Assembly: GCF_004403065.1 (NCBI RefSeq)
Contig: NZ_SOHA01000020.1
Coordinates: forward strand, 1-64,000
DNA: 64,000 nt
Direction of reading: 5' to 3'
Origin: Cryobacterium cryoconiti
GTDB taxonomy: Bacteria > Actinomycetota > Actinomycetes > Actinomycetales > Microbacteriaceae
The notes under the pieces are model-generated. The model saw only the letters and a list, made by a program, of their open reading frames with translations. It was not told where the DNA came from and searched no databases. The position numbers were made by a program, and so were the translations under genes. The stretch's first letter is position 1. Each line of letters starts with the position of its first letter. This document shows positions 2,663 to 34,535 of the stretch, piece by piece.

Positions 2663-2754
2663 CCCGTTCCCCCCTACTTTCCCGCCCGTTCCACGAAAGC
2701 CATTCAACAATCGGAGATTCCGGCCCGCGCGCCGGTTCCCCCATCGGAGTTCCA

Positions 2755-3111: not shown

Positions 3112-3177
3112 AGTAATTCCCCTCTCACCACCCCCCACTCGCCTGTCCCGGCGCCGAAACCTCACCGGAGAATCACC

Positions 3178-3904: not shown

Positions 3905-4183
3905 CTACCAGTGCGGCGGGCGGTCCTGCCGGAGCCGCTCGTCGTTGACGCCGCGGGTGCCCGGTCCGTCGGGGTCGGCGGGCACGACGCCGCCCTCCTC
4001 GCGCAGAACCGGCGGATGCGGATTCGGGTCGGTGCCCGGCGCCGGCGTCAGCCGGGCGCGCCGTGAGGTACCGCCCGACGTGACGACCGACTGTCGGGGA
4101 ACGCCGGATGCCGGTGTCCGCGGGGCGAGCCCGGCAGGACCGACGCCCGCCTCATCCTCCTCGGGCGCTGCGCGCTCAGGCAC
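3905..4183 (-). CDS. Small hypothetical protein coupled to the helicase gene
   Basis: This 92-residue frame starts at GTG 4183, which overlaps the helicase stop by 8 bp, so translation is probably coupled. The sequence is Pro/Gly/Arg rich and looks disordered. It ends in the charged tail NDERLRQDRPPHW, which resembles C-termini of small conserved proteins found after this helicase in related genomes (from memory). No domain is recognised. The coupling and the terminal motif are the main reasons to accept it as real. Confidence 0.55.
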   Translation of the reverse strand: MPERAAPEEDEAGVGPAGLAPRTPASGVPRQSVVTSGGTSRRARLTPAPGTDPNPHPPVLREEGGVVPADPDGPGTRGVNDERLRQDRPPHW

Positions 4184-7970: not shown

Positions 7971-8109
7971 ACTCGACACCCTAAGCCAATCACCTCCGAT
8001 TCCCCGGCAGGCGGCCCGGAATTGCGGGGATTCGAGCCCGAATTGGGCCAAATCGGGGCTTCCGGATGCGCGTGCGGCCGTGATCGAATCGGCTTGCGAG
8101 AATGGTGCA

Positions 8110-9141
8110 ATGAAACTACCCCTCGTCGAACTCCACCTGCACATCGAGGGAACCCTCGAACCGGAGCTGCTCTTCGAACTGGCCGAGCGGAACGCGGTGA
8201 CCCTGCCGTGGGCATCGCTGGACGAACTGCGCGCCCAGTATGATTTCGCCGATCTGCAGTCGTTCCTGGACCTCTACTACCGGGCGTTGGACGTTGTGCG
8301 GGAACGGATCGACTTCGCCGACCTGACCCGCGCCTATCTCGCCCGGGCACGCACGGCGGGGGTGCGGCACGCGGAGATCTTCTTCGACCCGCAGGCGCAC
8401 ACGAGCCGGGGTGTGCCGCTCGGCACGGCCCTGGCCGGGGTGCGCGACGCCCTGGACCGTTCGGTCGACGAGTGGGGCATCACCACCAAGCTGATCGTGA
8501 CGTTCCTGCGCGACCGGCCGGCCGACGAAGCGCTGCAGATCCTGCGCGAGATCCTCGCCGACGGGGTGGCGATCGACGGAATCGGGCTGGACTCGGCCGA
8601 GGTCGGCTATCCCCCGGCGCTTTTCACCGAGGTCTTCGACCTGGCCCGCGCGCACGGTTTGCGCCTGGTCGCGCACGCCGGCGAGGAGGGGCCGCCCGAC
8701 TACGTCTGGCAGGCCCTCGACCTGCTCGGGGTGGAACGCATCGACCACGGCATCCGCAGCCTGGAGGACGAGGCGCTGCTCGACCGGCTCGTGCGGGACC
8801 GCGTGCCGCTCACCGTCTGCCCGTTCTCGAACGTGCGACTCCGGGTGATCGACACCCTCGCCGACCACCCGATCGTGCGGATGCTCGACCGCGGGCTGCT
8901 CGCCTGCATCAACTCCGACGACCCGGCCTATTTCGGCGGTTACATCGATGACAACCTGGCCGCGCTCGACGCGGAGTTCGACCTCGGGCCGGACCGGCTG
9001 GCCCTGCTCGCCCGGAACGGCATCGAGGCGTCGTTCCTGACACCCGCCGAGAAGGCCGCGCTCCTCGACGAGGTCGAGACCTGGCTGACCGCCCGGCGGG
9101 AGCCGGCCTCGGGGCCGGCTACAGCCATCCGTTCTTCTTGA
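8110..9141 (+). CDS. Adenine/adenosine deaminase (adenine deaminase type 2-like)
   Basis: This 343-residue amidohydrolase deaminates adenosine to inosine or adenine to hypoxanthine in purine salvage. Metal ligands and catalytic residues are visible: HLHIEGT near residue 9, HAGEEG in the middle, RIDHGIRS, and SDDPAYFGGY near the C-terminus. The Ser-Asp-Asp-Pro-Ala-Tyr-Phe signature is characteristic of the adenine deaminase branch (yeast Aah1-like, type 2) rather than classical adenosine deaminase, so adenine is the more likely substrate (family knowledge). Start ATG 8110 is divergent from the helicase. The last 23 bp overlap the convergent corA gene. Confidence 0.92.
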   Translation: MKLPLVELHLHIEGTLEPELLFELAERNAVTLPWASLDELRAQYDFADLQSFLDLYYRALDVVRERIDFADLTRAYLARARTAGVRHAEIFFDPQAHTSRGVPLGTALAGVRDALDRSVDEWGITTKLIVTFLRDRPADEALQILREILADGVAIDGIGLDSAEVGYPPALFTEVFDLARAHGLRLVAHAGEEGPPDYVWQALDLLGVERIDHGIRSLEDEALLDRLVRDRVPLTVCPFSNVRLRVIDTLADHPIVRMLDRGLLACINSDDPAYFGGYIDDNLAALDAEFDLGPDRLALLARNGIEASFLTPAEKAALLDEVETWLTARREPASGPATAIRSS

Positions 9142-20300: not shown

Positions 20301-20557
20301 ACCGCACGCGCGATGACCAGACCGGCGATGACGAACTCGAGGACGAGGTACAGCCCGTAGTCCACCCACACCGGTCGCTCCGAGATCGTGAATTCGAGAG
20401 TCGACCAGGCGTAGCCCAGGACGGCCAGGGCGACCAGGACGAATCCGGCCCGGATCCAGGGCGGCGCAGCCATCACGTGCGGCTCCGCCCGCCGTCCGGA
20501 GACGGCCGCCTGCCGCGGGTCGGCCTCGTGTCGAGCGGTTTCCGTATCGACCGTCAT
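17396..20557 (-). CDS. Membrane hybrid sensor histidine kinase with two receivers and an HPt domain
   Basis: This phosphorelay sensor of about 1053 residues is cytoplasmic-membrane anchored. The N-terminal third (about 25-310) is a bundle of roughly nine hydrophobic helices, probably an intramembrane sensor. Next come HisKA (His in [12 protein letters not shown], about 370), HATPase_c (DTGIGIP and [10 protein letters not shown]), receiver 1 (Asp in DMQLPGMNG, about 700), receiver 2 (Asp in [10 protein letters not shown], about 835) and a C-terminal HPt domain (His in [14 protein letters not shown], about 990). Start ATG 20557 is preceded by AGAAGG; the frame also extends upstream. It is divergent from the glycan operon, whose stand-alone receiver protein (26770) is the obvious acceptor of the HPt phosphoryl group (inference). 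Confidence 0.95.
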
Positions 20558-20887
20558 TCGCCTTCTGACCTCTCCGTCCGTCGGACTTCTGCTGGATAGC
20601 GACCGGACAGGCACCGCTGCGGCGCGATCACGCTCGTGGCAAGGATACGGACTTCCACGCCTCCCTGGCTCACTTTGCATGCAATGCCGCTCTAAATTAC
20701 GACATACTGATCATGCGTGACACCCCGAATTGGCGCGCAACGCAGAGTAAACGCTCCCAGATGCCTCAGTATCTGAGCTGCGATTGCATGCAATTCACGT
20801 CTTCCGTCTGCGCACGCAGTGCCACAAGCTGTCAGGGGTATCCATGAGTCCATTCGCGTTCCCGCCTGGCAGGCCGGATTTCACCGC
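20558..20887. promoter_or_regulatory. 330-bp divergent regulatory region with two identical palindromes
   Basis: This gap between the hybrid kinase and the glycan operon is AT-richer than its surroundings. The palindrome TTGCATGCAA occurs twice, at 20675-20684 and 20784-20793, 109 bp apart between first bases. Each copy is flanked by further symmetric A/T bases. They look like operators for a dimeric regulator controlling both directions. No clear TTGACA-TANNNT promoter could be assigned; TAAATT at 20693-20698 is one possible -10. No convincing ORF lies within. Confidence 0.6.
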
Positions 20888-22099
20888 ATGAGCCGCTCCA
20901 CGGCACGGACCCCACCGGCCAGACTCCGCATCGGCGTCGTGACCGCCTTCCCGCCGGGGCGCAACAGTCTGAACGAGTTCGGCTTCCACCTCGTCAAGCA
21001 TCTGGTTGCGCAGAGCGAGGTCCAGGAGGTGCTGCTCTACTCCGATGTGACGGATGCCGGCACCCCGGCCCCGATGGACGGCGTCACCGACCATCCCAGC
21101 TGGACCTTCAACAGCGTGACGAACGTGTTCCGTCTGACGCGCACCATCGCCCGAACCCGCCCCGACGCCGTCCTTTTCAACCTGCAGTTCGCGACCTTCG
21201 GGGACAAGCGAATCGCCGGAGCGCTCGGCCTGCTGATCCCGGCGCTTCTTCGGGTGATCCGGGTGCCGAGCGTCGTCGTGCTGCACAATCTCGCCGACAA
21301 CGTCGACATGCAGGATGCCGGCTTCGCCGGTTCGGCGGTGACGGCCCGCCTGATGAAGTTCGCCGGCCGCATTCTCACCCGGGCACTGCTCCGTGCCGAT
21401 CTCGTCGCCCTGACCATCCCGCGCTATGTCGAATACCTGCAGGAAAGCTACGGCGCGAAAAACGCCCTCCTGGCGCCGCACGGCAGCTTCGAGGAGGTGG
21501 CGGTCCCGTCCTTCGGCATCCCCGCCGGCCGCAGACGCATCCTCGCCTTCGGGAAGTGGGGAACCTACAAAACCGTGGATGTTCTCGTCGAGGCCTACCA
21601 GGAGCTGCTGCGGCGGGGCTACCGGGACCTCGAGCTCACCCTCGCCGGAACCGACAGCCCGAACTCCGCCGGCTACATGGCCTCCGTCGCGGACCGTTTC
21701 GCCGCCCTGCCGAACCTCGTGTTGACCGGTTATGTCGCGGAGGACGAGGTCGCCCCGCTGTTCTCCTCAGCGACCGTCGTGGCCTTCCCCTACACATCGA
21801 CCACCGGGAGCTCGGGGGTGCTGCATCAGGCCGGCGAGTACGGTCGCGCGGCGGTGCTTCCCCGCATCGGCGACCTCATCGACATCATCGAGGAAGAGGG
21901 GTTCCTCGGAGTGTATTTCGAGCCCGGCGACGCAGAGAGCCTCGCGGACGCACTGGCCCTGGTCCTTGATGACCCGAATCGGCGCACGTCCATCGGCCGC
22001 CGCAATTTCGCCGCCGCCTCCGGAATCCCGATGTCCGAGGTCGTGCACTGGCACCTGATCCACATTCAGCGGCTGCTCGACCGGCGGCCCGCCCGGTGA
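20888..22099 (+). CDS. GT4-family glycosyltransferase (GT-B fold)
   Basis: This 403-residue protein has the two-Rossmann-domain GT-B layout. The N-terminal acceptor domain begins IGVVTAFPPGRNSLNEFGFHL. The C-terminal donor domain starts at RRILAFGKWGTYKTVDVLVEA, continues through LTGYVAEDEVAPLFSSATVVAFPY, and has the donor-binding STTGSSGVLHQAGEYG. It transfers a sugar from a nucleotide-sugar donor in the cytoplasm; sugar and acceptor are unknown. Start is ATG 20888; an upstream GTG at 20819 is possible but overlaps the likely 5' region. It is the first gene of a tightly overlapping operon and its stop overlaps the flippase start by 4 bp. Confidence 0.88.
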   Translation: MSRSTARTPPARLRIGVVTAFPPGRNSLNEFGFHLVKHLVAQSEVQEVLLYSDVTDAGTPAPMDGVTDHPSWTFNSVTNVFRLTRTIARTRPDAVLFNLQFATFGDKRIAGALGLLIPALLRVIRVPSVVVLHNLADNVDMQDAGFAGSAVTARLMKFAGRILTRALLRADLVALTIPRYVEYLQESYGAKNALLAPHGSFEEVAVPSFGIPAGRRRILAFGKWGTYKTVDVLVEAYQELLRRGYRDLELTLAGTDSPNSAGYMASVADRFAALPNLVLTGYVAEDEVAPLFSSATVVAFPYTSTTGSSGVLHQAGEYGRAAVLPRIGDLIDIIEEEGFLGVYFEPGDAESLADALALVLDDPNRRTSIGRRNFAAASGIPMSEVVHWHLIHIQRLLDRRPAR

Positions 22100-23379
22100 G
22101 CACGGGAGTGGGTACCGGTTCGGCCGGTACGAAGTCCCTCGTCGGAGGTGGCACGTACCTCGCCGTGGCGATGATCGTCGCCAATGTGGGCAACTATGCG
22201 CTCAACCTGTTCCTGGGGCGAGTGCTGACCCCGGCGGAGTTCTCGGACGCCAACCTGATGGTGACCCTGATGCTCACCCTCACGTCCATCGCCCTCGGCC
22301 TGCAACTCGTCGCGGCGCGCTTCGTCGGAACGTACGACGAGGCCGGCCGACCCGAGAAATCCGAACGCCTCGCACGCACGCTGCGCGTCTACGCGCTCGG
22401 CGCCGGACTCGTGACCGGGTTGGCGCTCGCCGGCGGCAGCGGGTTCTGGTCCGAATTGTTCCAGACGGCATCGTTCTGGCCGTTCGTCATCCTCGGAGCC
22501 GGGATGCCGTTCTACCTGGTCCAGTCCGTGGGACGGGGGGTGATGCAGGGTCGGCTCCGGTTCAGAGAGCTCGCCGCGTCCTTCGTGGTGGAGATGATCG
22601 TGCGGCTGGGCGCCGGTGTGGTGCTCGTCGCCCTGGGCTTAGGGGTGAACGGCGCGACAGTCGCGCTCACCGCATCGTTTGTCGCCACCTGGCTCACCGT
22701 GAAGCTCCTGGCCAGGGTCGGACCAGCCCTGGCCGGCTCAGCCCCCGCTCCCGAAGTGCGCGCCTACGCCGCCCTCGTAGCGGTCCTTCTGATCGGACAG
22801 ATCATCGCCAACAACAGCGACGTCCTCGTCGCGAAAGCTTTTTTCACACCGGATGCCGCGGGCATCTACGCGGCGATCGCCCTCGTCGGCCGGGCCGTGT
22901 TCTTCCTGGCCTGGTCGGTCGCGACGGTCGTCTTCCCCGTCGTGGCACGTCGGCACGCGAGCGGCGGCGACACCGTCTCGATCCTCACCGGCGGAATCGC
23001 GGCCGTCGCGGCCATCGGCGCCGCCTGCACCCTGGGCGCCCTGTGGTTGGGCGGCCCGATCCTCGGAGTCATCCTCGGACCGGACTACGGCGACCTCTCC
23101 GCCCCACTCGCTGCGTACGCAGGCATGACCACTCTCTTCGCCGTGGCGAATCTCATCGCCAGCCACGAACTCTCCCAGGGGCGCAACACACAGTCGTGGT
23201 TGTTGCTCGGAGCATCGGCCCTGCAGCTCGGACTGCTGCTGATCTGGCACGAGTCGACCGCCCAGCTGATCCTCGTCCAATTCGTGGCGATGGCCGCGCT
23301 CCTCCTGGTGATGGCCGCGCGTCGTGTCATGCGAATTTCTTCTTCCCCGATCCTCCCAGCAGAAGGGCCGTCGCGATGA
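22096..23379 (+). CDS. MOP-superfamily polysaccharide/oligosaccharide flippase (Wzx-like)
   Basis: A 427-residue integral membrane protein with about 12 hydrophobic helices spread over its whole length, starting at GTYLAVAMIVANVGNYALNLFLGRV. This N-terminal pattern (helix, then an LGR-type loop and PAEFSDANL) is typical of polysaccharide-transport MOP flippases, which move lipid-linked glycans across the cytoplasmic membrane. Start GTG 22096 overlaps the preceding stop (GTGA), and the next gene starts inside its own stop (ATGA), so translation is coupled on both sides. Substrate is unknown; the flanking glycosyltransferases suggest it exports their product. Confidence 0.85.
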   Translation: MSTGVGTGSAGTKSLVGGGTYLAVAMIVANVGNYALNLFLGRVLTPAEFSDANLMVTLMLTLTSIALGLQLVAARFVGTYDEAGRPEKSERLARTLRVYALGAGLVTGLALAGGSGFWSELFQTASFWPFVILGAGMPFYLVQSVGRGVMQGRLRFRELAASFVVEMIVRLGAGVVLVALGLGVNGATVALTASFVATWLTVKLLARVGPALAGSAPAPEVRAYAALVAVLLIGQIIANNSDVLVAKAFFTPDAAGIYAAIALVGRAVFFLAWSVATVVFPVVARRHASGGDTVSILTGGIAAVAAIGAACTLGALWLGGPILGVILGPDYGDLSAPLAAYAGMTTLFAVANLIASHELSQGRNTQSWLLLGASALQLGLLLIWHESTAQLILVQFVAMAALLLVMAARRVMRISSSPILPAEGPSR

Positions 23380-24227
23380 GCGCAGAATCCGGCACGTACC
23401 AGGCCTACCGGACGTGGGTCACCGAGAAGGCGACGGTCCGTCCGCTGATCTCGGTCGTCATTCCGGCGTACAACGAAGAGTGGCGGATTCTGCCGACCAT
23501 CGGCGCGATCGCGACTCATATGTGTTCGCGGGGCGAACCGTGGGAACTCATCATCGCCGACGACGGGTCCACCGACACGACGGTCTCACTTCTGGAAGAC
23601 CTGCGCTTTCCGAACATGACGGTGCTGGTGGCCGCCCGGAACGCCGGTAAGGGTGACGCCGTACGCCGCGGCATGCTCGCGGCCCGCGGCGACGTCATCC
23701 TGTTCGCGGACGCGGACCAGTCCACCCCGATCGAGCAGTTCGACCGCCTCCTGGACAAGATCAATGCCGGCTACGACGTCGTCGTCGGCTCGCGCGCCGC
23801 CGACGGAGCCACAGTCAGTAGCAAGAGCGCGCTGCGCAAGGTTCTGAGCCGTGGTCTCAACCTGATCGTCCGGGGTGGTTTCGGCATCTCGGTCTCCGAC
23901 ACCCAGTGTGGGTTCAAGCTGTTCACGGCCCCGGCTGCGCGGTCCCTGTTCACGCTCCAGGTTATTGACGGGTTCTCGTTCGACCTCGAGGTGATCTACC
24001 TGGCCGGCCGGCTCGGACTGCGCACCAGCGAGGTTCCGGTCGAATGGATCGACGCCCCCGGCTCGACCGTCGACGCCGCCAAAGTCAGCCTGCAGTTCCT
24101 GGCGGACCTGGCCAGGATCAAGGTCCGCGATCTGCGCGGCCAGTACCCCGTCACCGCCCATTCCCCGGCGGGCCGACCGGCTCCCTCCCCCCACAACTTG
24201 CCCCGATCGGATAGGACACCACGATGA
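23376..24227 (+). CDS. GT2-family glycosyltransferase (dolichol-phosphate glucosyl/mannosyltransferase-like)
   Basis: This 283-residue GT-A glycosyltransferase has the core ISVVIPAYNEE, IIADDGSTDTT, AARNAGKGDAVRRGML and the metal-binding FADADQS. The later signature SDTQCGFKLF is typical of polyprenyl-phosphate glucosyl- or mannosyltransferases of the DPM1/Alg5 group. Such enzymes load a sugar onto a polyprenyl phosphate at the membrane, to be used outside by GT-C enzymes; a GT-C-like protein is encoded five genes downstream (28157). No C-terminal membrane helices are present. Start ATG 23376 lies within the stop of the flippase gene. Confidence 0.92.
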   Translation: MSAESGTYQAYRTWVTEKATVRPLISVVIPAYNEEWRILPTIGAIATHMCSRGEPWELIIADDGSTDTTVSLLEDLRFPNMTVLVAARNAGKGDAVRRGMLAARGDVILFADADQSTPIEQFDRLLDKINAGYDVVVGSRAADGATVSSKSALRKVLSRGLNLIVRGGFGISVSDTQCGFKLFTAPAARSLFTLQVIDGFSFDLEVIYLAGRLGLRTSEVPVEWIDAPGSTVDAAKVSLQFLADLARIKVRDLRGQYPVTAHSPAGRPAPSPHNLPRSDRTPR

Positions 24228-24556
24228 GAATCCGCACAGAATCTGGAATCGGCCACACGGCAGTGAGCCTCGCCGGCCGTTTCGACGCTCACGAGACTGC
24301 AGCCTTCCGGGTGGTCGTCGATGCCCTGTTCGGCCCCGACCAGGCCACCGTGCGTCTCGACCTCTCGAATGTCGTCTTCGTCGACTCCAGCGCCCTCGCC
24401 GAGCTCCTGCGCGTGCAGAAGGCTGCCCGGGCAGCCGGCGGCGAGGTCGTCCTCGTCAACGTCTCCGACCCGGTCCGCATCATCCTGGAGCTGACCGAAT
24501 TGAAGCAGGTCTTCACCCTGGAAACCACGCCACAGACGGCTTCGACGCTCTCGTGA
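24224..24556 (+). CDS. STAS-domain protein, anti-sigma-factor-antagonist-like (first copy)
   Basis: A 110-residue single STAS domain of the SpoIIAA/RsbV type. The phosphorylatable-Ser region is LDLSNVVFVDSSALAELLRV, where the second Ser of DSSA is the expected phosphosite. In partner switching such a protein, when unphosphorylated, binds and sequesters an RsbW/SpoIIAB-type kinase. Start ATG 24224 lies in the stop of the glycosyltransferase gene, which places it firmly inside the glycan operon. A second STAS gene follows at 26398. No sigma factor gene is nearby, so the controlled target is unknown. Confidence 0.92.
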   Translation: MRIRTESGIGHTAVSLAGRFDAHETAAFRVVVDALFGPDQATVRLDLSNVVFVDSSALAELLRVQKAARAAGGEVVLVNVSDPVRIILELTELKQVFTLETTPQTASTLS

Positions 24557-25950
24557 CCGCCGCGCTGCCCCACGAATTGATCGAGAGCGACGCCGCCGAC
24601 GCCGCCCTCGAGCGTCTGCTCGTGGGTGCCGGCGCCCGAAGCATCCACAAGTCCCCCGGCCCGGACTGGACCATTTCGGGCCCCGTGTCGCGTGACGCTC
24701 TGGACGCGGTCAACGAGGTCCGCCGAGCCATCCACGACATCTACGCCGCCCAGGACGAGATCGCCGGCGCCCTGGTCCGAAGCCAGGACGACCTTCTCGC
24801 CCTGAGGGCGCTCACGCAGGTGAACGTGGGCACCCTCGGCGTTTTCGAGTCGTTCCAGGACCTGTTGCGGGAATCCAGGGACCTCACCTCCTCCGACGTC
24901 GTCGCGCTGCTGGACGACCGTCTGATGCAGAGCTCAGGAGGCCGCGGCGCGGATTCGGCGGCGTTCGCCGAGCTTCTGCTCGAGGCCGCGGACGTACCCG
25001 GAGACCTGGAACCGAGACTCGCCAGGGGCGGTCACGCCGTCGTCGCCCCCCTCGTGACTCCGGGGGGCGGTGTCCGCGTGCTGGCGTTCCTGCGCGTAGC
25101 GGGGCCGGTCTACTCCACAGGAGATCTGCGCCTGATCAGGGCAGCGGTGGCCGCTGCCAATATGCGGTTCACCCTCACCCGCCTGCACCTCCTCGAGATC
25201 AAGCGCGCCACCTTCGAACGCGAACACGAGGTGGCCTCGAGCCTGGCGCAGGCGGTCTTCTCCCAACCCGCACCGGTACTCGCCGGGGTCGACGTGTTCT
25301 CGGATACCCTTCCGGCCAGCCTCGCCGGTGGAGACTTCTTCGCTTTCGCCGTTGTCGACGGGGTGATCTGGTTCACTGTCGGGGACGTCGCGGGCAAAGG
25401 CCTTCCGGCGGCCATGGTCATGACCCGGGCGGTCAGCGCCGCTCGGGTCGCGTTCCTCACCCACCCGGACGACGACGCCGCCGGGGCGATGCTGGCCATG
25501 GGTGCGGAACTGTACGACTATCTCGACGACGTCGGCCTCTTCATCACCGTGGTGATCGGCGCGTACCGGCCCGCCACCGGCATCCTGCACCTGTGCAACG
25601 CCGGTCATTCCCCCGTCATGCTGGTGCGGGACGGTGCGATCACCCTCGTTCCGGCGTCGATCCCGCCGCTGGGCGTTCTGCCGGCCCCGGTTGGCCGAAC
25701 GGTACGCTTCGACCTCGACGCCGGCGACGCGTTGGTGCTCGGTTCCGACGGTCTTGCCGAGCAGGAGAATCCCCGGGGAGTCATGCTCGGCTATGACCGG
25801 CTGGGCGAAGTCTGTGCTGAGCTTCAGGGCGCATCCGCCGCCCGATTGGGACACCATATTCTGGATGCCGTGACCACACACGCCGATGGCGCGCCCTTCT
25901 CCGACGATCGCACTCTCGTCATCCTCCGAGCCGTCGAGATGGCACGATGA
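24553..25950 (+). CDS. PP2C/SpoIIE-type serine phosphatase with N-terminal sensor region
   Basis: This 465-residue protein ends in an RsbU/SpoIIE phosphatase domain (about 235-465). Metal-binding acids are visible in SLAGGDFFAF, TVGDVAGKGLPAAMVM and the C-terminal VLGSDGLAEQ. The middle (about 95-225) is probably a GAF-like sensor. The first 80 residues may form a helical segment. Such phosphatases dephosphorylate STAS antagonists, which releases the kinase's partner. GTG 24553 overlaps the stop of STAS gene 1, and its own stop overlaps the kinase gene by 4 bp, so antagonist, phosphatase and kinase are produced together. Confidence 0.93.
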   Translation: MTAALPHELIESDAADAALERLLVGAGARSIHKSPGPDWTISGPVSRDALDAVNEVRRAIHDIYAAQDEIAGALVRSQDDLLALRALTQVNVGTLGVFESFQDLLRESRDLTSSDVVALLDDRLMQSSGGRGADSAAFAELLLEAADVPGDLEPRLARGGHAVVAPLVTPGGGVRVLAFLRVAGPVYSTGDLRLIRAAVAAANMRFTLTRLHLLEIKRATFEREHEVASSLAQAVFSQPAPVLAGVDVFSDTLPASLAGGDFFAFAVVDGVIWFTVGDVAGKGLPAAMVMTRAVSAARVAFLTHPDDDAAGAMLAMGAELYDYLDDVGLFITVVIGAYRPATGILHLCNAGHSPVMLVRDGAITLVPASIPPLGVLPAPVGRTVRFDLDAGDALVLGSDGLAEQENPRGVMLGYDRLGEVCAELQGASAARLGHHILDAVTTHADGAPFSDDRTLVILRAVEMAR

Positions 25951-26405
25951 CCCCCGCCGAGCGCGACGAGCTGGTGATCGAGGGTGACAGCCTCGCGATC
26001 AGGAGGATCGGGCCCTGGCTGCGTGACCGGCTCGACGGCCTGCCGGCCGACGAGGCGGGCGAGATCGCGGCGCGACTGGAACTGGCCGTTCATGAGGTAG
26101 CGATGAACATGGTCGACCATGCGCGTCTCCCCGCCTCCGCCCTCCTCCGGTTCCGGGCCGCGATCACCGACACCGTCGTCGAGGTCAGCGTCACCGATCC
26201 GGGTGAGCCCTTCGACCCCGATACCGAGAAGACGCCCACCGCCGGGACACCCCAGGAACGCGGTTACGGTCTGATGATCGTTCGGAAACTGGTCGATCAC
26301 CTCGAATACACCCGGCTCGACGCCGGAAATGAATGGATCCTGCGAGTCAACCGCACCAGCCCCGCCGATCCCGGCACACCGGAAGTGAGCAGCACCCATG
26401 ACTGA
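25947..26405 (+). CDS. RsbW/SpoIIAB-like ATP-binding anti-sigma-type kinase
   Basis: A 152-residue GHKL (HATPase_c_2) protein. The N-box is ARLELAVHEVAMNMVDHA, the G1 box VTDPGEPFDP, and the G2 region ERGYGLMIVRKLVDHLEY. This is the serine-kinase component of partner-switching modules. It phosphorylates STAS antagonists and, in classical systems, binds a sigma factor. It sits between the phosphatase and the second STAS gene, with overlapping starts and stops on both sides. With no sigma factor in the operon it may act on the glycan machinery or on a distant regulator (inference). Confidence 0.9.
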   Translation: MTPAERDELVIEGDSLAIRRIGPWLRDRLDGLPADEAGEIAARLELAVHEVAMNMVDHARLPASALLRFRAAITDTVVEVSVTDPGEPFDPDTEKTPTAGTPQERGYGLMIVRKLVDHLEYTRLDAGNEWILRVNRTSPADPGTPEVSSTHD

Positions 26406-26760
26406 CGTCTTCACGCTCGACGACTCGCAGCCCACCTTGAGCGCGAGCCTCACGTTCCCGGCCACCGGACTCGCGATCGTCGCGCTCACCGGCCGACTCG
26501 ATGCCGTCGCCGCGCCGGAGCTGCGTCTCCGGCTGACCGAGGCCGACGTCGCCGGATGCGCCAACGTCGTGTTCGACCTGTCCGCTGTCACCTTCGTGGA
26601 CAGCGCCGGCCTTGCCGTTCTGGTCTGGCTCCGGCGCAGATGCCGGGCGGAAGGCGGAGACGTGGTGCTGGTCAGTCCGGATCTCGTCGACGCGATGCGC
26701 GTCTTCCGGCTCACCCAGTTCGATCAGGTGTTCCGGATGCTCCCGGACTCGGCAAGTTAG
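26398..26760 (+). CDS. STAS-domain protein, anti-sigma-factor-antagonist-like (second copy)
   Basis: This 120-residue STAS domain contains VVFDLSAVTFVDSAGLAVLV, with the phosphorylatable Ser in DSAG. It overlaps the kinase gene by 8 bp. Its DSAG site matches classical SpoIIAA/RsbV more closely than the DSSA of the first copy, so the two antagonists may have different affinities or different roles, for example one as kinase antagonist and one as output. It ends 9 bp before the receiver gene. Confidence 0.92.
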   Translation: MTDVFTLDDSQPTLSASLTFPATGLAIVALTGRLDAVAAPELRLRLTEADVAGCANVVFDLSAVTFVDSAGLAVLVWLRRRCRAEGGDVVLVSPDLVDAMRVFRLTQFDQVFRMLPDSAS

Positions 26761-26769
26761 GGCCGGCGA

Positions 26770-27141
26770 ATGAGCTACACCGCCCTGGTCGTGGACGATG
26801 AGATCGTTTCCCGCCTCGTCCTCTCGCACATGCTCCGCCGAGCCGGCTGGACCGTCACCGAAGCCGACGACGTCGCCCCGGCAGTCGCGCTCACCGAGGC
26901 CCGGGACTTCACCGCGATCTTCTCTGATTTCTCGATGCCGGGCGGCACAGGCATCGATCTGCTGAATTCCCTGCCGCAGGCGCCGAACCGCCCCCTCTTC
27001 GTCCTGGTGACCGGCGTTGTGGAACACTCGTCCGTCGGCCGTGACCTGGCCGGTGTCGACGGCCACCTGACCAAGCCGATCAGCTCGCGCGCTCTCGCCG
27101 AGTGCCTCGCCGGCGTCCGTCCGGCCGAAAGCGACCGGTGA
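26770..27141 (+). CDS. Stand-alone response-regulator receiver domain
   Basis: This 123-residue protein is a CheY-like receiver with no output domain. The acidic pocket is VVDDE near the N-terminus, the phospho-acceptor Asp is in IFSDFSMPGG, and the conserved Lys is in HLTKPISS. It has no DNA-binding or enzymatic domain, so it must act by protein contact, like CheY or Spo0F. The HPt domain of the divergent hybrid kinase (17396) is the plausible donor, and the phosphatase or kinase of the partner-switch module the plausible target (inference). Confidence 0.93.
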   Translation: MSYTALVVDDEIVSRLVLSHMLRRAGWTVTEADDVAPAVALTEARDFTAIFSDFSMPGGTGIDLLNSLPQAPNRPLFVLVTGVVEHSSVGRDLAGVDGHLTKPISSRALAECLAGVRPAESDR

Positions 27142-28160
27142 CCCAGGTCAGGATGCCCTCCCTGGCCACCGCCGCCATCGTCGTCGGCTGGCTCCTGGCC
27201 GGCAGCCTGGCTGCGGTCGCCGTGGCCAGGGCAGTTGACGCGGACGGGAGATCCATTCAGATCGGAATCCAGGGGATCGCCGTCTGGCTCCTGATTCCGG
27301 CCTACCCGCTCCTGGTGGGCGCCGTGATCGCCGTCGTGCGCCGGCGCCGACGTGGCACGGCCGGCCTCCGATGGTGCGTCGCACTCGCCTCGGTCGCACT
27401 CGTCCTGGTCGGCGTGCAGGTGCTGCTTCTCGTGTCCGCGATCGGCTGGAACGGAACCCGCTCCGCGCCGGTCGGCTCCGGCGCACTGCGGATCGTGAGT
27501 GCGAACGTGCTGCTCGACAACACGCAGGTCCCCGATCTGGCCAGAGAACTCGTCGCGACGGGCGCCGACGTCATCGTGCTGCAGGAAGTCACCCCGGAGC
27601 ACGTCACCGCCCTGAACGCTTCGCCGCTCGCGGCCGCTTACCCCCACCGGCTGCTCGACCCGCTTCCGGGCTACCACGGCTCGGCGATCTTCTCCCGGTT
27701 CGCGATCGCGGGCGGCGGGCCCATCGACGTGGCCGGTTCCCCCATGTTGCAGGCGGACATCCACCTCCCCGGCGGACTCATCCGGCTGATCAACGTGCAC
27801 ACGGTCGCTCCGATCGGTGCGGGCAACGCCGCAGCGTGGCGGGAGCAGTTCGCCGAACTCAGCCGGATGGCCGGGACCGAGACGAGTCCGCTCATCCTCG
27901 CCGGCGATTTCAACGCCACACTCGACCACGCGCCACTGCGACGACTCCTGGCCGAAGGATTGCGGGACGCGTTCGTCGAGGGCGGCACCGGCTTCGGGGC
28001 GACCTGGCCCCGATGGGACGGCATTGTTCCTCCGGTGATGCGGCTGGACCATGTGCTCGTCAGCTCGGAGATCAGCGTCGTCTCACTGGCCACCCAGACG
28101 AGCTCCGGCAGCGACCACCGCCGACTCCTCGTCGATCTTGCCCTTCCCCCTGCCTCATGA
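27138..28160 (+). CDS. Membrane-anchored endonuclease/exonuclease/phosphatase (EEP) family protein
   Basis: A 340-residue protein with three N-terminal TM helices (about 8-25, 40-60, 75-98) and then an EEP domain. Family motifs are LRIVSANVLL, VIVLQEVT (metal-binding Glu), LILAGDFNAT and, at the end, SGSDHRRLLVDL with the catalytic Asp-His. The topology suggests an extracytoplasmic EEP domain. EEP proteins cleave phosphodiesters in DNA, lipids or inositol phosphates; in this setting a lipid- or glycan-linked phosphodiester is a reasonable guess. GTG 27138 overlaps the stop of the receiver gene (GTGA). Confidence 0.88.
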   Translation: MTQVRMPSLATAAIVVGWLLAGSLAAVAVARAVDADGRSIQIGIQGIAVWLLIPAYPLLVGAVIAVVRRRRRGTAGLRWCVALASVALVLVGVQVLLLVSAIGWNGTRSAPVGSGALRIVSANVLLDNTQVPDLARELVATGADVIVLQEVTPEHVTALNASPLAAAYPHRLLDPLPGYHGSAIFSRFAIAGGGPIDVAGSPMLQADIHLPGGLIRLINVHTVAPIGAGNAAAWREQFAELSRMAGTETSPLILAGDFNATLDHAPLRRLLAEGLRDAFVEGGTGFGATWPRWDGIVPPVMRLDHVLVSSEISVVSLATQTSSGSDHRRLLVDLALPPAS

Positions 28161-31100
28161 CCCTGACCTTGACCCGGGCGAAGGAGTCTCGCGACCACGT
28201 CGAGCGACCGAGAATTGGCTTCGTTCGTCGCCACCGGCTTCTGTTGATCGCGCTCATTCTGGTGGTGCTCTTCCACGGTTCGCTGCTGCTCTCCGGAAGT
28301 TACCAGCGCACCTACGACGCCTACGTACACATCTTCTTCGCCGACCACTACGCGAGGGATTGGTTCTCCAGCTGGGATACCCGGTGGTACACCGGATTCT
28401 CGACGCTGAGCTACCCACCGGGCAGCCATTTCCTGGTCGCCGGATTCAGCAAGGTGATCGGACTGCGACCGGGGTTCGTCGTGGTGCAGATCTTCGCATT
28501 GCTCAACCTCACCATCGGGGTCTACCGGTGGAGCCGCATCTGGGTCAATCGCACGTCGGCCGGCTGGGCGGCGATCGCCCTGGTTGTGGCCTCGTCGATC
28601 GCCGAAACCGTGCACGTCTTCGGCCAGCTGCCGACCACGCTGTCGCTCGGGTTCCTGCTCAACGCCCTGCCCTTCGCATACGCCTGGGTGCGAACGGGCA
28701 ACAAGAAGGCCCTGCTCGCGGGGGTGGGCTGCATCATGGCCACCACGGCCTGCCACCACGTCACCACCCTGTTCGGTTCGATCTTCTTCCTCGGGCCGGT
28801 GCTGGTCGCCGCGGTTGTCCTCGCCCTGCGCACCCCGCTCGCGGGGGAACCCGCCGGGCATCCGCCCCGTTTCCGTTTCCGACTCCTCTGGCCGCTGATC
28901 GCGCGACGCCTCCGCCGGGCGATGCCGGCGCTCACTCGCACCGGCATCTTCGGCGTGCTGCTCGTGGTGGCCCTGGTCGCCGTCGTGTTCCCCTACTGGC
29001 TGTACTCACGAAGCGATCCGATCACCCAGGTGTCGATACCGCACGCCAGCCGCGACAACTTCCTGGTCAACGTCAACGCGGGCCTGGTGTTCTGGGCGAT
29101 CCCCTGGGGCACGACCCTGCTCGTCCTTCCCTACGCGTTCGTTCGCGGCCTGACCGGCAGGGCCTGGCCCCTCGCCCTCTCGCTGGGCGCGCTGGCGTTC
29201 CTGGGCACCGGAGGCACCACCCCGATTCCCCGGTTGCTGCTGGGAGGCGCATACGACATCCTCACGCTGGACCGTTTCACATTCTGGGCCACCATCTCGG
29301 TACTGCCGTTCGTCGGACTGTTCGTGTCGAGTCTCACCACCGGGTCGATCCGCGCCTGGCTGCTCGCGCACGTCGGGCGAACCCTCTCCGTGGTCCTGCC
29401 GGCCATTCTTCTGACCGCCCACCTGGCCACGACCCTGTTCGCGGCCAACCTGACCCACTACCGCGCGTTCCAGCCTGCCCCCATCGATGTCGCCCCGATC
29501 GCGTCCTTCATGGACAAGGACCAGCACTCGCAATGGCGATACCTGACGCTCGGCTTCGGTGACCAGATGGCATGGCTGGGCGCCAATATGACGGCAGGCA
29601 CCGTCGACGGCAACTACCACTCCGCCCGCCAGCTCCCCGAACTGACGTCCCGGCCGATCGAACGGCTGGAGGGCGCCAAGTACTCCGGGGTGCCCGGTAT
29701 CGGGAGCCTGCAGCAATTCCTCGCGGTGCCCGGCCGGTACTCCCTCAAGTACGTCTTCAGCAATGACGCGTTCTACTCCCCGCTGCTCGACGCTAGCGGT
29801 TGGACCAATCTGGGGCCGCTCGAAAACGGCGTCGAGGTCTGGGAACGCGCCGATGTGGCCCCGCTGCCCACGAACGAGGTCTCCAACGAGGCGCCGCTCT
29901 GGAAACGCCTCTGGTGGGGCATCATCCCCCCGGCCTCGATCGCCACGGCCCTCCTCCTCCTGCTGTGGTCACTCGTCGGGTCGCCGACGTGGGGCCTGCC
30001 CTCGAACCGGCGAACCCGTTCGTTCCGCGCCGCGCTGCGCGCCCTCGTCAACCCCCTCTTCCGAGCCGCCGCCGGGCTCGACGCCGCTCTCGCCCGGGCG
30101 AGCGAACGCATCCCGCCGGTCGAAGATCCGGCATCCGCCTCAACGGACACCGGTTGGTTGCCGTGGGCTGCCCCGCTTCCCGCTCTCCGGAGGCGCGCCC
30201 GAGCACGTGTGCGGCGCCGCCGCCGCCGCCGGCAGGCCGCAGCGGTGACCGTTCTCCTCGTCCTCGCCGCCGCCGGGGGTGCCTTCGCTGTCGCAAAGCC
30301 CCGCCAGCCCACCGCAGCCGCGGTCGTGGAAGCCTACTATGAGCACCTCGACTTCCGTCGGTTCGCCGACGCGTATGCCCTCCTCGACCCGGCCACCCGA
30401 CCGGACTACACGCGGTTCCAGCAGGAGCTGGGTCGCGACGGCGGCCTCGTCGCATCCTTCGCCAAACTGGCCTCGGTCTCGACCGTCCAGACGTCGAGCA
30501 CACCCGGCGGGCAGGTGCTGACCACCAGCCTCACCTACCTCACCTCGCTGCAGTCCTACGTCGTAACCACACCGGTCTCCCTGGTCCACGCGTCAGGCGG
30601 CTGGTTCATCGACCTGCCCGCGGCCGACGCGACCAGCCCGCCCGACCAATTCACCAGCCGTCCCGCGGTGGGATTCCTTTCCCAGGGCCGGCGGGCCATC
30701 AGCGTTGACGGCACGGACACGGTCGATGTTCTCGACCGTCCCGAGCTCACCCTGGCCAACGTGAAGTCTCTGTTGGTCGACGGCCGCTGGGTCGTGATCG
30801 GGGAGGTCACCAACGCCGACGTCGATCCAGCCGACGTCACGGTCGAGGCGCAACTGCGCGACCGGAGCGGCACGCTGCTGGCCAGCTGGGACGCCTCCCA
30901 GGTACTCGTCCACAAGCTCATGCCCGGAGCCACGAGTCCTTTCCGGATCGAATTCCAGAGCCTCGCCGGCACCGGCGACTACGGCCCGGAGGCGGGTGGC
31001 GGCCTCAGGAACGCCACCCCGGACACACCGGGTTCGGCGACCACGGTCACGGCGGCGGCGCCCGCCAAGACCTCCGACGTCTATGGTCCCGTCGAGTTCG

Positions 31101-31585
31101 ACCCGCAGACCATCACCCCCCTCGTCCTGGCCGCCGACGCACAGGTCGCATCGGTGGACGTCTATGCCAGGGCCGTCGTCACGGCGCGGGCGACCGAGCG
31201 TGGGCTGCAGGTGCAGCACCTGCGGCTGGGGGGTTCGGCGGAGCTGGGCTACTTCGTGGCCGGGGAACTGCGGAACGACGGCACGGTCGAGGCCTCGGTG
31301 CCGCACCTCCTGCTCTCCTACACGGCGGCCGACGGTACCCTGGCGTGGGTCGACCACGCCTACCTCGAGCACAGCATCGCCCCGCAGTCGGTCACCATGT
31401 TCCAGATTCCCCTGGCATCGAGCACGCTGATCATCCCCGCCGCGGTCCCGGCGGAAGGGTTCGGCGGTCCCGCCCATTCCCCGCCTGCGTCCGCTCTCGA
31501 CGCGGCCCTGCAATTGCCGCCCGACACCGGATTCGCCGGGCTCTCTCTCACCGCCACGACCTTCGCCCGATTGGGCGCGCCATGA
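28157..31585 (+). CDS. Large GT-C-like membrane protein fused to a C-terminal soluble domain
   Basis: This 1142-residue protein has an N-terminal polytopic half (about 25-615) with around ten TM helices. An early loop reads TYDAYVHIFFADHYARDW, then SYPPGSHF, resembling the acidic first loop of GT-C glycosyltransferases and of the PTPS-related membrane family. GT-C enzymes take sugars from polyprenyl-phosphate donors outside the membrane. After a basic stretch and another TM helix (about 690-715) comes an extracytoplasmic region with an NTF2-like segment (VVEAYYEHLDFRRFADAYALL) and an FxLYD-like beta domain (VKSLLVDGRWVVIGEVTN). ATG 28157 overlaps the preceding stop. The fold calls need a structure search. 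Confidence 0.75.
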   Translation: MTLTLTRAKESRDHVERPRIGFVRRHRLLLIALILVVLFHGSLLLSGSYQRTYDAYVHIFFADHYARDWFSSWDTRWYTGFSTLSYPPGSHFLVAGFSKVIGLRPGFVVVQIFALLNLTIGVYRWSRIWVNRTSAGWAAIALVVASSIAETVHVFGQLPTTLSLGFLLNALPFAYAWVRTGNKKALLAGVGCIMATTACHHVTTLFGSIFFLGPVLVAAVVLALRTPLAGEPAGHPPRFRFRLLWPLIARRLRRAMPALTRTGIFGVLLVVALVAVVFPYWLYSRSDPITQVSIPHASRDNFLVNVNAGLVFWAIPWGTTLLVLPYAFVRGLTGRAWPLALSLGALAFLGTGGTTPIPRLLLGGAYDILTLDRFTFWATISVLPFVGLFVSSLTTGSIRAWLLAHVGRTLSVVLPAILLTAHLATTLFAANLTHYRAFQPAPIDVAPIASFMDKDQHSQWRYLTLGFGDQMAWLGANMTAGTVDGNYHSARQLPELTSRPIERLEGAKYSGVPGIGSLQQFLAVPGRYSLKYVFSNDAFYSPLLDASGWTNLGPLENGVEVWERADVAPLPTNEVSNEAPLWKRLWWGIIPPASIATALLLLLWSLVGSPTWGLPSNRRTRSFRAALRALVNPLFRAAAGLDAALARASERIPPVEDPASASTDTGWLPWAAPLPALRRRARARVRRRRRRRQAAAVTVLLVLAAAGGAFAVAKPRQPTAAAVVEAYYEHLDFRRFADAYALLDPATRPDYTRFQQELGRDGGLVASFAKLASVSTVQTSSTPGGQVLTTSLTYLTSLQSYVVTTPVSLVHASGGWFIDLPAADATSPPDQFTSRPAVGFLSQGRRAISVDGTDTVDVLDRPELTLANVKSLLVDGRWVVIGEVTNADVDPADVTVEAQLRDRSGTLLASWDASQVLVHKLMPGATSPFRIEFQSLAGTGDYGPEAGGGLRNATPDTPGSATTVTAAAPAKTSDVYGPVEFDPQTITPLVLAADAQVASVDVYARAVVTARATERGLQVQHLRLGGSAELGYFVAGELRNDGTVEASVPHLLLSYTAADGTLAWVDHAYLEHSIAPQSVTMFQIPLASSTLIIPAAVPAEGFGGPAHSPPASALDAALQLPPDTGFAGLSLTATTFARLGAP

Positions 31586-32844
31586 GGCGGGTACGGTCCG
31601 GCCCGCTGCTCGCCCTGCTGCTGCCCCCGATGCTGGCCCTGGGACTCGCCACAGACACCGGCGCGGGCGCCCGCGCCTCCGCGGGTCCCCTGCACAGCGA
31701 ACGGACGGCCCTCGCCGTCGACGCCCCGGCGTCGGCCGAGGCCGGACGGGTGCTGACCGTGGCCGTCTCGGGCGCCGGCAACGGCTCCACCGTGCGATTG
31801 ATCGCCATCGGTTCCCTCGGCCAGATCGTGCTCACCGCAACCGCCACGGCCGACACCGCGCGCTTTCATCTCCCGGTCGCTTTCACCCGCACCGCCGGCT
31901 CGGTCACCCTGGTGGCGACCTCCGCCGGCTTCGTCGCGCACGGCACCACCGAGCTCCTCGCCGGCACCGCGGTCGGTCCGGTGCAGGCGGTGGTCGGTGC
32001 GCGCTCCATCGTCGCCGACGGAGCCGACGCGTCGATGGTCGTCACCATCCCGGTCGACGTCTGGGGCAATGCCGTCGCCGAGGGCTCGCCCGTGCAGTTC
32101 TTCCGGCAGAATCCCGACGGCACGCAAGGTACCAGCCAGACCACGATGACTCACCTCCTCGCCTTTGCAAACCTCCTCTCCGGCACCCGTGCCGGTCGCG
32201 GCACGGTCTGGGTCTCCGTCGGCACCGTGTCCGGCCCCGCCGTCAGCCTCGACGAGGTCGCCGGTCCCCCCGAGCCCTTCACGCTCGAACCGGTCGAGCC
32301 GCTGCTGGCCGGCAGGGCCATGGCCGACGGTCAGACGTTGGTGCCGGTGCGGACATCCGTGCTGCGCGACCGATTCGGGAACGTTGAACCTGACGGCACC
32401 CAGGTGACCGTGGAGTGGTCCGGGGCGGAGGGACCGGCGCGCGCCACCGCTGTCACGATCGCCGGCGTCGCGCAGATCTCCGTTCAGGCTCCCTCCACGC
32501 CCGGAGATCTCCAGATCACCGGCTTCTGCCGCGGCGTGGCGTCGGCCGGCGCACTGGTGCTTCCGTTCTCAGCCGCGGTGGGCGACTTCCCCGTGACCGC
32601 GGACCTGCGCCCTGCCGCCGTGAACGTCACGGTCGGACCGGTCACCGGATACGGGGGCAGCCTCGTGCCTGACGGAACCCCGGTCTCAGTCAGTGTGACC
32701 GACGAGACTGGTCCGGCCGGTTCCCGTTCGGGCGGTCTCGTCAATGGAACCGCCGACGTCGTCGTACCGAGCCGGAAACTCGTCGGCCGGGTCACCGTCA
32801 CGGTTTCGGTGCTCGGCGCCCAGACCGAGAAGACGCTCCGATGA
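31582..32844 (+). CDS. Secreted Ig-like/invasin-type beta-domain protein
   Basis: This 420-residue protein has a Sec signal peptide (MRRVRSGPLLALLLPPMLALGLA) and then repeated beta-sandwich segments. Repeats of the form ADGADASMVVTIPVDVWGNAV, MADGQTLVPVRTSVLRDRFGN and LVPDGTPVSVSVTD resemble bacterial Ig-like (Big_1/invasin) modules, at about 135-180, 250-300 and 355-420. No membrane anchor or sorting signal is seen at the C-terminus. It overlaps both neighbours by 4 bp. It may be an adhesive or scaffolding component exposed with the glycan; no enzymatic motif is visible. Confidence 0.78.
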   Translation: MRRVRSGPLLALLLPPMLALGLATDTGAGARASAGPLHSERTALAVDAPASAEAGRVLTVAVSGAGNGSTVRLIAIGSLGQIVLTATATADTARFHLPVAFTRTAGSVTLVATSAGFVAHGTTELLAGTAVGPVQAVVGARSIVADGADASMVVTIPVDVWGNAVAEGSPVQFFRQNPDGTQGTSQTTMTHLLAFANLLSGTRAGRGTVWVSVGTVSGPAVSLDEVAGPPEPFTLEPVEPLLAGRAMADGQTLVPVRTSVLRDRFGNVEPDGTQVTVEWSGAEGPARATAVTIAGVAQISVQAPSTPGDLQITGFCRGVASAGALVLPFSAAVGDFPVTADLRPAAVNVTVGPVTGYGGSLVPDGTPVSVSVTDETGPAGSRSGGLVNGTADVVVPSRKLVGRVTVTVSVLGAQTEKTLR

Positions 32845-34535
32845 CCGACACCAGGGCGGCTCTGCGACGTTCGCGCACGCTCACGCGCGGCCGCACGAAA
32901 CGCGTCGCCGCGGCGGTGCTCGCCCTCGGTCTCGTGGCCCTGACGAGCGGGCTCCTCGTCATGTCGGGGCAGGTCACCCTGCAAACGTCGACCGGTGCGG
33001 CAGTGTCCTCCGGACTGAACGAAGTCGCGACGGTCCCGGCCAACGCCGACCAGCTCGTAAATTGGTTGCCCGACGCCTGGCCGGATGAGCGGGAAATGGA
33101 GCCCGCTTCCCGCACCAGGATAGCCGCGAGCTATATCCGGGCCTGGGCCGCGATCGGTCGCTTTCAATCCACGGGCGAGACGCCAGCCGTCATCGATACG
33201 TTCAGCGGGGCCGCCCGGCGTGCCGTTCTTGAGCTGCCGAGCACTGGGCCGAGCGCCACCTGGGACCTCCGGCACTCCCTCGAGCTCGAGTTCTACTCGC
33301 TTGACGGAGCCACGGTCGCTTTCCAGGACCAGGGTGCGCGCATCGCCCGCACGGTCGGCACCGGAGAGTCCGAGACTGTCATCCTCAGCCAGGAGACGTA
33401 CGACGTCGTGATGGTCCTCGAGGACGGGTTCTGGCGCATCCGTCAGCTGAAACGCGCGCTCGGCAGCGACGATGTCACGGTGACGACCGCTGCCGCGGGA
33501 GCGGCCACGATCACCGGCGCCACCCCGAGAGCCCCTCTCCCGATCCCCTCGAGTCGCGCCACCGAATACCGGCCGGACGGGTGGGAGGCGCGTGACCCCG
33601 CCGAGCTCGCAGCAGACTTCACCCGACTGCGTGCGCTCGGTTTTGACACCATCCGGGTGCCGCTGTCCTTCACGGACCTGGGTGGCACTCGTCCGACCGA
33701 CGACGCCATCGACGGAGTGACAACGCTGCTCGAGCAGGCCGACGCGCACGGGCTGCGGGTCGCGCTGGTCCTCTTCGACGACTTCCCGGACCTCACTCCG
33801 GCGACGTGGGTCGGCGCCGGAGCCCATCTGACCCGAATCGCGACCGCTGTCCGAGGCCAACCTGCGCTCGTTCTCTGGGACCTCGCCGATCGGCCCGACC
33901 TCCGTACGAGCGGGCCGACCAGCGCCGCAGAAATCCGCGCGTTCCTCGTTTACGCCGGCTCCGCGCTGCGCGAAATCGACCCAGAAACGCCGCAGACGAT
34001 CTCGTGGGCGACCAGCGCGACCGCTGCCGATCCGGCCATGGCGGGCCTCGTCGACGGCGTGACCCTCCATCTGACCGGGAACGAGGACCCAGCCGGTGCA
34101 ATCCAGGCAGTGCGCACCGCGGTGCCCGACAGACCTGTTTTGCTCACTGTGACGGGCCTCGATACCGACGGCGGCTGGAGCCCGCTCCCGCGAACCGAGG
34201 CCCGGCAGGTCGTCGACGTCGATCGGGTGCTCCAGGCCGGTGAACGCGCCGGTCTGTCGCGTGTGAGCGTGGCAACGTTCATCGATACCGAAACGGATGC
34301 CGGCGGGCTGCTGCGCCGCGACGCCTCCGCGAAACCGGCCGCCGCTTTGTTCGCCGCGAGCGCTGAACCAGCCGCCGTTTCCCCGCCCGGTGTACTCGAC
34401 TACGCCCGATCGAAGTTCTGGATCCTGATGACCGCGCTCTTCGCCGCGGCCGCCAGCGTCCTGCTGTGGGTCCGGCGGCGCAAACATACAGCGCCTGCGA
34501 GGCCGAAAACGTCAAGCGAGGCCGACGGTGATTGA
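32841..34535 (+). CDS. Bitopic membrane protein with degenerate glycoside-hydrolase (GH5-like) barrel
   Basis: This 564-residue protein has a TM helix near residues 22-44 and a second near 530-550 followed by a basic tail, so the bulk is extracytoplasmic. Residues 60-215 form an NTF2-like region. From about 240 a TIM-barrel pattern appears: LRALGFDTIRVPLSFTDLG, then ADAHGLRVALVLFDD, then ALVLWDLADRPDL. The last segment aligns with the GH5/clan-A Asn-Glu-Pro acid/base motif but reads Ala-Asp-Arg. The expected nucleophile strand reads TVTGLDTDGG without Glu. I infer a non-catalytic sugar-binding or scaffold protein. It ends the operon. Confidence 0.72.
   Translation: MTDTRAALRRSRTLTRGRTKRVAAAVLALGLVALTSGLLVMSGQVTLQTSTGAAVSSGLNEVATVPANADQLVNWLPDAWPDEREMEPASRTRIAASYIRAWAAIGRFQSTGETPAVIDTFSGAARRAVLELPSTGPSATWDLRHSLELEFYSLDGATVAFQDQGARIARTVGTGESETVILSQETYDVVMVLEDGFWRIRQLKRALGSDDVTVTTAAAGAATITGATPRAPLPIPSSRATEYRPDGWEARDPAELAADFTRLRALGFDTIRVPLSFTDLGGTRPTDDAIDGVTTLLEQADAHGLRVALVLFDDFPDLTPATWVGAGAHLTRIATAVRGQPALVLWDLADRPDLRTSGPTSAAEIRAFLVYAGSALREIDPETPQTISWATSATAADPAMAGLVDGVTLHLTGNEDPAGAIQAVRTAVPDRPVLLTVTGLDTDGGWSPLPRTEARQVVDVDRVLQAGERAGLSRVSVATFIDTETDAGGLLRRDASAKPAAALFAASAEPAAVSPPGVLDYARSKFWILMTALFAAAASVLLWVRRRKHTAPARPKTSSEADGD

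Follow-up and report, generated by a model that had tools for sequence, protein, structure and literature searches.

STAS-based switches with unknown targets have been described in or near polysaccharide genes (available part of PMC8256260). In Vibrio fischeri, according to the accessible portion of PMC10120452, the STAS protein SypA is a switch encoded in a polysaccharide locus that acts below transcription on an unknown target; STAS, kinase and phosphatase govern the output of the locus, a receiver is linked to them, and input comes from a sensor kinase (RscS). In Nostoc punctiforme HmpUVW, which is linked to motility and polysaccharide, a PP2C-RsbW pair has the STAS protein as its output, the target of this protein and the effector of HmpV being left undefined in the available parts of PMC8256260 and PMC6495340. 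Here, we describe a locus in which a complete switch of this type lies among glycan genes. The locus is found in a stretch of 64,000 nucleotides of Cryobacterium cryoconiti (contig NZ_SOHA01000020.1, positions 1 to 64,000; hereafter, the window), the host genome of which is 3.43 Mb in size, and its twelve genes are conserved in the same order in four further genomes. Judging from gene content and conservation, this is probably a sigma-independent partner switch that acts post-translationally on the lipid-linked glycan machinery itself.

The comparison with V. fischeri SypE/SypA made in the earlier note is apt (accessible portion of PMC10120452), the comparison covering the switch. The two systems differ in that SypE is a single kinase-REC-PP2C protein, whereas the Cryobacterium locus contains separate PP2C and RsbW genes, and in that Cryobacterium-type loci contain two STAS classes and a triad of GT-C, Ig-like and GH5-like proteins. 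HmpUVW is a developmental regulator in the available text, whereas the Cryobacterium switch is located inside a glycan gene block. The RsbUVW-sigma B and SpoIIAB/AA modules of Bacillus subtilis consist of the same three protein families, but the present locus is without a sigma factor and no SigB/F/G-type factor exceeded the cut-off in four Cryobacterium hosts. Transmembrane glycosylation systems (GT-A polyprenyl-phosphate transferase, GtrA flippase and GT-C enzyme, as given in the accessible part of PMC13390465) share with the locus a polyprenyl-phosphate-type GT2 together with a GT-C enzyme (at family and fold level), but the locus has a Polysacc_synt_3 flippase instead of GtrA, a GT-C protein nearest to oligosaccharyltransferases (OSTs), a GT4, Ig-like and GH5-like proteins, and a built-in switch. 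In a paper on Actinoplanes missouriensis exopolysaccharide, the term 'STAS' does not occur, and the clusters in the available part do not resemble the Cryobacterium locus. Polysaccharide loci that include a partner switch are already known; the gene set and its spread over phyla were not found described among the literature matches listed, and none of these describes this gene combination, most subscription journals being outside the coverage.

In the open reading frame (ORF) analysis of the window, the twelve genes span positions 20819–34535 on the plus strand and are divergent from a gene for a hybrid histidine kinase, as listed below with the basis of each assignment in parentheses.

17396..20680, minus strand: hybrid histidine kinase with membrane sensor, HisKA, HATPase, two receivers and Hpt (Pfam)
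20819..22099, plus strand: GT4-type glycosyltransferase, start codon uncertain (PF13692)
22096..23379, plus strand: Polysacc_synt_3 flippase of the MOP superfamily (PF13440 over the Pfam cut-off)
23376..24227, plus strand: GT2 of the polyprenyl-phosphate sugar synthase type (nearest solved relatives)
24224..24556, plus strand: STAS protein of class A, D-S-x-A (Pfam and class pattern)
24553..25950, plus strand: SpoIIE/RsbU-type PP2C phosphatase with N-terminal extension (PF07228)
25947..26405, plus strand: RsbW-like serine kinase, HATPase_c_2 (PF13581)
26398..26760, plus strand: STAS protein of class B, D-S-A-G (Pfam and class pattern)
26770..27141, plus strand: stand-alone receiver (PF00072)
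27138..28160, plus strand: membrane EEP-family protein (PF03372)
28157..31585, plus strand: predicted GT-C glycosyltransferase with a large C-terminal exported part, 1142 amino acids (structure model)
31582..32844, plus strand: exported Ig-like protein, 420 amino acids (Invasin_D3 below cut-off)
32841..34535, plus strand: membrane-anchored, predicted GH5/GH2-like TIM barrel with catalytic glutamates replaced, 564 amino acids (model and alignment)

Among the 11 junctions, nine are overlaps of 4 bp, one is an overlap of 8 bp (RsbW/second STAS) and one is a gap of 9 bp (second STAS/receiver). These coordinates agree with the rightward run and divergent kinase outlined in the earlier note, and Pfam bears out its assignments from the two glycosyltransferases to the EEP protein. 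Given the overlaps, the twelve genes may be co-transcribed as one mRNA; a scan for promoters and terminators yielded nothing beyond chance level. The kinase gene probably starts nearer position 20557, because its relatives align from residue 33.

The ordered gene set, which the earlier note had proposed to seek in related genomes, was found in four of them (genomes and loci of this analysis are designated by G- and L-numbers, respectively, G000 being the genome of the window). All 12 genes are collinear in three other Cryobacterium genomes (G033, G044 and G050, taken as C. algoricola, C. glucosi and C. breve, with G050 being C. breve) and in G104, a metagenome-assembled genome (MAG) of another family, whose proteins are 35–67% identical to their window counterparts. 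With all 12 genes keeping their order in four genomes besides that of the window, the block does not reflect chance. The 1142-amino-acid GT-C query found matches in 5 of 149 relatives, and a search with the GT-C alignment gave hits in 4 of the 57 genomes from the genus and in 3 of 396 from a phylum sample (own genome counted each time). The phosphatase query matched in 31 of the 149 relatives at E ≤ 1e-10, near full length only in the five GT-C-bearing genomes. The hybrid kinase is 61–64% identical in the three other Cryobacterium genomes and is interrupted by a contig end in L008; it was not seen in L010, the contig of which starts approximately 0.9 kb before the first glycosyltransferase. 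Its sensor was also found in a Nakamurella locus (L047). In C. breve (L009, G050:C1 ~2103171-2106606), the GT-C gene is split over two frames compared with its relatives, and its second part contains two TGA codons within the profile match.

PF07228 covers positions 2–190 of 192 in the phosphatase (E 2e-36), which is the sole match to itself in the window genome at E ≤ 1e-10, and the two STAS proteins are the only STAS_2 matches over the cut-off in that genome. The RsbW-like kinase has the N-box and glycine motif of GHKL kinases, residues E50, N54, G106 and G108 being invariant in 15/15 aligned sequences. The STAS proteins fall into two classes according to position, with D-S-x-A in 33/35 at the first and D-S-[AS]-G in 32/33 at the second, and the lone receivers of PP2C-type blocks all carry the phospho-acceptor Asp (26/26).

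A scan of genome contigs identified 532 encoding relatives, and the 80 best were retained. In total, 81 loci (the window, the four earlier relatives and 76 of the best 80) were profiled using profiles seeded by the window proteins, with best-domain cropping for RsbW; many contigs end within the locus. GT-C was found in 81 loci, Ig in 79, the N-terminal part of the GH protein in 76, GT2 in 66, GT4 in 62, the flippase in 59, PP2C in 23, RsbW in 22 (each ORF given to its best profile) and EEP in 7. Loci in which the GT-C/Ig/GH5-like triad is accompanied by GT4, a GT2 of the polyprenyl-phosphate type and the flippase are distributed over Actinomycetota, Chloroflexota and Bacteroidota, with one further case in a Trueperaceae MAG; the combination, which the earlier note had considered as an actinobacterial system, is thus not specifically actinobacterial. 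Histidine-kinase ORFs lie directly upstream of GT4 in eleven Acidimicrobiales loci.

Taking all sets together, PP2C is present in 37 blocks, three of which are interrupted by contig ends. The remaining 34 (33 genomes; L147 duplicates L040, and L127 and L039 belong to one genome), from Actinomycetota and Chloroflexota, all show the order glycosyltransferase (GT), STAS, PP2C, RsbW, STAS. The earlier note had named a lack of conservation of the regulators with the glycan genes as a refutation; the opposite was found, every one of these 34 blocks lying beside a GT gene. In most PP2C blocks a receiver follows the switch; none was seen in L019, which has both STAS genes. Three Chloroflexota genomes (L039/L127, L040/L147 and L148) encode a receiver-PP2C fusion, PP2C and RsbW form one ORF in L010 and L025, and the Trueperaceae locus (L044) contains STAS-RsbW-STAS with no PP2C hit. 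The flippase profile was also applied to 16 genomes, namely 14 without a flippase in the GT-C flank and those of L029 and L045, which have one there. A strong copy was detected in 13 of the 14 (in one, plus a weak second) and none in the genome of L038. Ten of the 13 strong flippases (11 of 14 regions, including L045) sit with GT2, GT4 and a complete switch, and no switch gene was seen in the regions of L124, L126 and L130 on contigs of 5.5, 12.5 and 8.8 kb, respectively. In L029, a single ORF (2229-4286, minus strand) joins the flippase to two preceding RsbW-like stretches, of which one matches poorly and the other is truncated. Distances between switch proteins and between glycan proteins are correlated (r 0.53–0.93, 27–32 genomes, 199 permutations), which shared ancestry alone could also produce.

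Loci without kinase and phosphatase were found mainly in Bacteroidota. Of 395 genomes sampled, 12 carry the GT-C protein; since one of these was in the set before, 11 sampled loci were added, and neither PP2C nor RsbW was detected in any of the 41 best-scoring or 11 sampled loci. The RsbW profile scored no higher than 38 bits across 24 Bacteroidota genomes versus 118–168 bits in 5/5 controls (a comparison that excludes the genome of L013), and its weak matches (E ≤ 1e-5), present in 19 of the 24, lie in frames of 491–940 amino acids. The phospho-serine is present in all 70 STAS proteins of loci with RsbW/PP2C (window included) versus 6 of 48 in loci without them, and the preceding Asp is conserved in 118/118 (a degenerate STAS candidate in L143 was left uncounted). 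Two actinomycete loci (L150 and L151) keep STAS, with the kinase/phosphatase pair and the serine both missing; the STAS of L044 keeps the serine. In Bacteroidota, receiver-GT2 fusions occur in 28 of the 41 best-scoring and all 11 sampled loci (39/52), and the long GT2 ORFs retain the phospho-acceptor Asp, Ser/Thr and Lys in 44/44.

Among the glycan enzymes, the GT2 most likely makes a polyprenyl-phosphate sugar because its nearest solved relatives are an ArnC-type transferase, dolichol-P-mannose synthase and sll0501. The flippase is Wzx-like (PF13440 over cut-off), and no GtrA-type flippase was detected by Pfam among the 12 proteins. Likewise, no Pfam family for an initiating phosphoglycosyl transferase or a Wzy polymerase was found among the 12 proteins, to which the search for these was confined. 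In L126 (168-3134, an Oscillochloris MAG) and L131 (8139-10529, an Anaerolineae MAG), the flippase forms a fusion with a polysaccharide pyruvyl transferase domain, a hint that the product may be pyruvylated. A phosphomannose isomerase-like gene near a Bacteroidota locus (L057 7097-8095, minus strand) may point to mannose as a substrate. VanJ acts in lipid-carrier metabolism; the match of the EEP protein to the VanJ family is weak (42.6 bits against a cut-off of 700), and a role in carrier recycling would be a guess.

The last three proteins match no Pfam family over the cut-off. The model of the GT-C protein (pLDDT 74.7, 40 sequences in the alignment) has 21 PDB matches at E ≤ 0.001, comprising AglB, STT3- or OST-containing complexes (among them 9n9j chain I, taken as STT3 from the entry title), PglB, AftA and ArnT, with low TM-scores by query length (0.25–0.29). 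The GT-C-like label of the earlier note therefore stands at the level of a predicted fold, for a single 1142-amino-acid protein without a Pfam hit. Its Ig-like label for the 420-amino-acid protein is weak, the Invasin_D3/Big_1 matches being below cut-off. For the 564-amino-acid protein (pLDDT 84.7), the best matches are TIM barrels of the GH2/GH5 type, so that the proposed glycosidase fold is retained as a prediction. An active glycosidase at 32841-34535 is ruled out by the replacement of both catalytic glutamates, here by R and V. Both are kept in 53 of 61 aligned relatives, and the eight exceptions are all actinobacterial, the barrel being partly unaligned in two. Decay of the barrel in Actinomycetota extends to several more loci in which it is undetected; the Acidimicrobiales loci L016, L025 and L027 are among the cases. 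Elsewhere in the window, an ORF of 1322 amino acids (4176-8144, minus strand) shows a weak C-terminal MTES_1575 nuclease-domain match below cut-off.

Taken as a sigma-independent switch, the locus would work as follows. It would build and export a polyprenyl-linked surface glycan: the GT2 would form the polyprenyl-phosphate sugar and the GT4 add sugars, the flippase would turn the lipid-linked sugar outward, and the GT-C enzyme would transfer it outside, with the exported Ig-like and GH5-like proteins as putative envelope partners. The RsbW-like kinase would phosphorylate both STAS proteins and PP2C would dephosphorylate them; unphosphorylated STAS may then bind GT2 and/or the flippase and set their activity. 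The hybrid kinase could feed the receiver via Hpt, and the receiver could adjust the phosphatase or GT2. The retention of STAS in loci without the kinase lends indirect support to STAS as an output below transcription. A broader proposal, held more tentatively and on balance still doubtful, is that these loci represent a widespread class of switches in which STAS proteins, as subunits of the lipid-linked glycan machine (polyprenyl-phosphate transferase and flippase), regulate it directly and can persist in a phosphorylation-blind form where kinase and phosphatase are missing. The receiver would be a second direct input in this class, either freestanding or joined to PP2C (Actinomycetota and Chloroflexota) or mostly joined to GT2 (Bacteroidota).

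The observations that weigh against a sigma-independent switch concern sigma factors on the one hand and the make-up of individual loci on the other. RsbW, STAS and PP2C together form the classical anti-sigma set, and RsbW might bind a sigma factor encoded elsewhere, the locus being merely one of its targets. In keeping with this, the SigB/F/G model TIGR02980 exceeds its cut-off once in the locus-bearing G104 (249 bits), six examined PF04539 hits of Cryobacterium presumably represent group-2 SigA paralogues, and a further sigma-like protein in G000 and G050 is one that we take to be FliA-like. Moreover, a second short RsbW-like protein (52–59 bits) occurs in G033, G044 and G050, so that the locus kinase is not the sole such kinase there; none was found over the cut-off in the window genome. 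We nevertheless regard an anti-sigma module as rather unlikely. There is no sigma factor in the locus, as the earlier note had claimed, and TIGR02980 exceeded its curated cut-off in 0/4 Cryobacterium genomes, at a cut-off that is strict since only 1 of 14 control genomes exceeds it. The additional PF04539 hits in Cryobacterium were considered as a hidden sigma target and rejected, none being over this cut-off (the six examined are from G000, G044 and G050; the G033 hits and a short hit on G000 contig C46 were left out). Furthermore, STAS is kept beside glycan genes in loci without kinase and phosphatase, mostly without the phospho-serine, and the switch genes adjoin a GT gene wherever the block is uncut. 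A sigma factor is the less likely target of the switch because of this retention of STAS and the negative scan in Cryobacterium.

As regards individual loci, STAS was found in 31 of the 41 best-scoring Bacteroidota loci but in only 2 of the 11 sampled ones; STAS is therefore dispensable in this phylum, and its universal presence there is ruled out by the sampled set. In 13 of the 41 best-scoring loci, GT2 carries no receiver label, and the loss of the serine does not represent 48 independent events because the Bacteroidota are one clade. In L130, no switch gene accompanies the flippase over the 1.5 kb leading to the contig end. The RsbW-flippase ORF of L029 is in keeping with a glycan target but comes from one MAG, and was rejected as general proof, since a search of 46 genomes of that order matched four flippases and the three related ones are unfused. 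The optional STAS, the frequent receiver-GT2 fusion in Bacteroidota and the intact active sites of the lone receivers would also fit a receiver that is itself the output, gating GT2 when phosphorylated by the kinase, with the partner switch only tuning the receiver or the hybrid kinase. This is unlikely in our view, since two distinct conserved STAS classes are present in every uncut PP2C block of Actinomycetota and Chloroflexota, L019 has both STAS genes and no receiver, and STAS persists in several loci without RsbW/PP2C. The patchy spread within the genus (4/57) and among the relatives (5/149), own genome counted, could suggest that a mobile island simply carries regulators and glycan genes along together, with no direct contact between them in function, but the same internal order across phyla, the fusions to GT2, to PP2C and in one case to the flippase, and the retention of the block where the triad is not adjacent make this very improbable.

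The targets of sigma-independent partner switches are an open question, as in the SypA and HmpV cases (available parts of PMC10120452, PMC8256260 and PMC6495340). The loci described here offer a natural series, ranging from the full switch through the receiver-PP2C and receiver-GT2 fusions to STAS without the kinase, and narrow the candidate STAS targets to two or three named enzymes. They also give a glycan of several phyla, to all appearances uncharacterised, a locus by which it can be recognised. If STAS does gate GT2 or the flippase, phospho-signalling would control the assembly of a bacterial surface glycan directly, without transcription.

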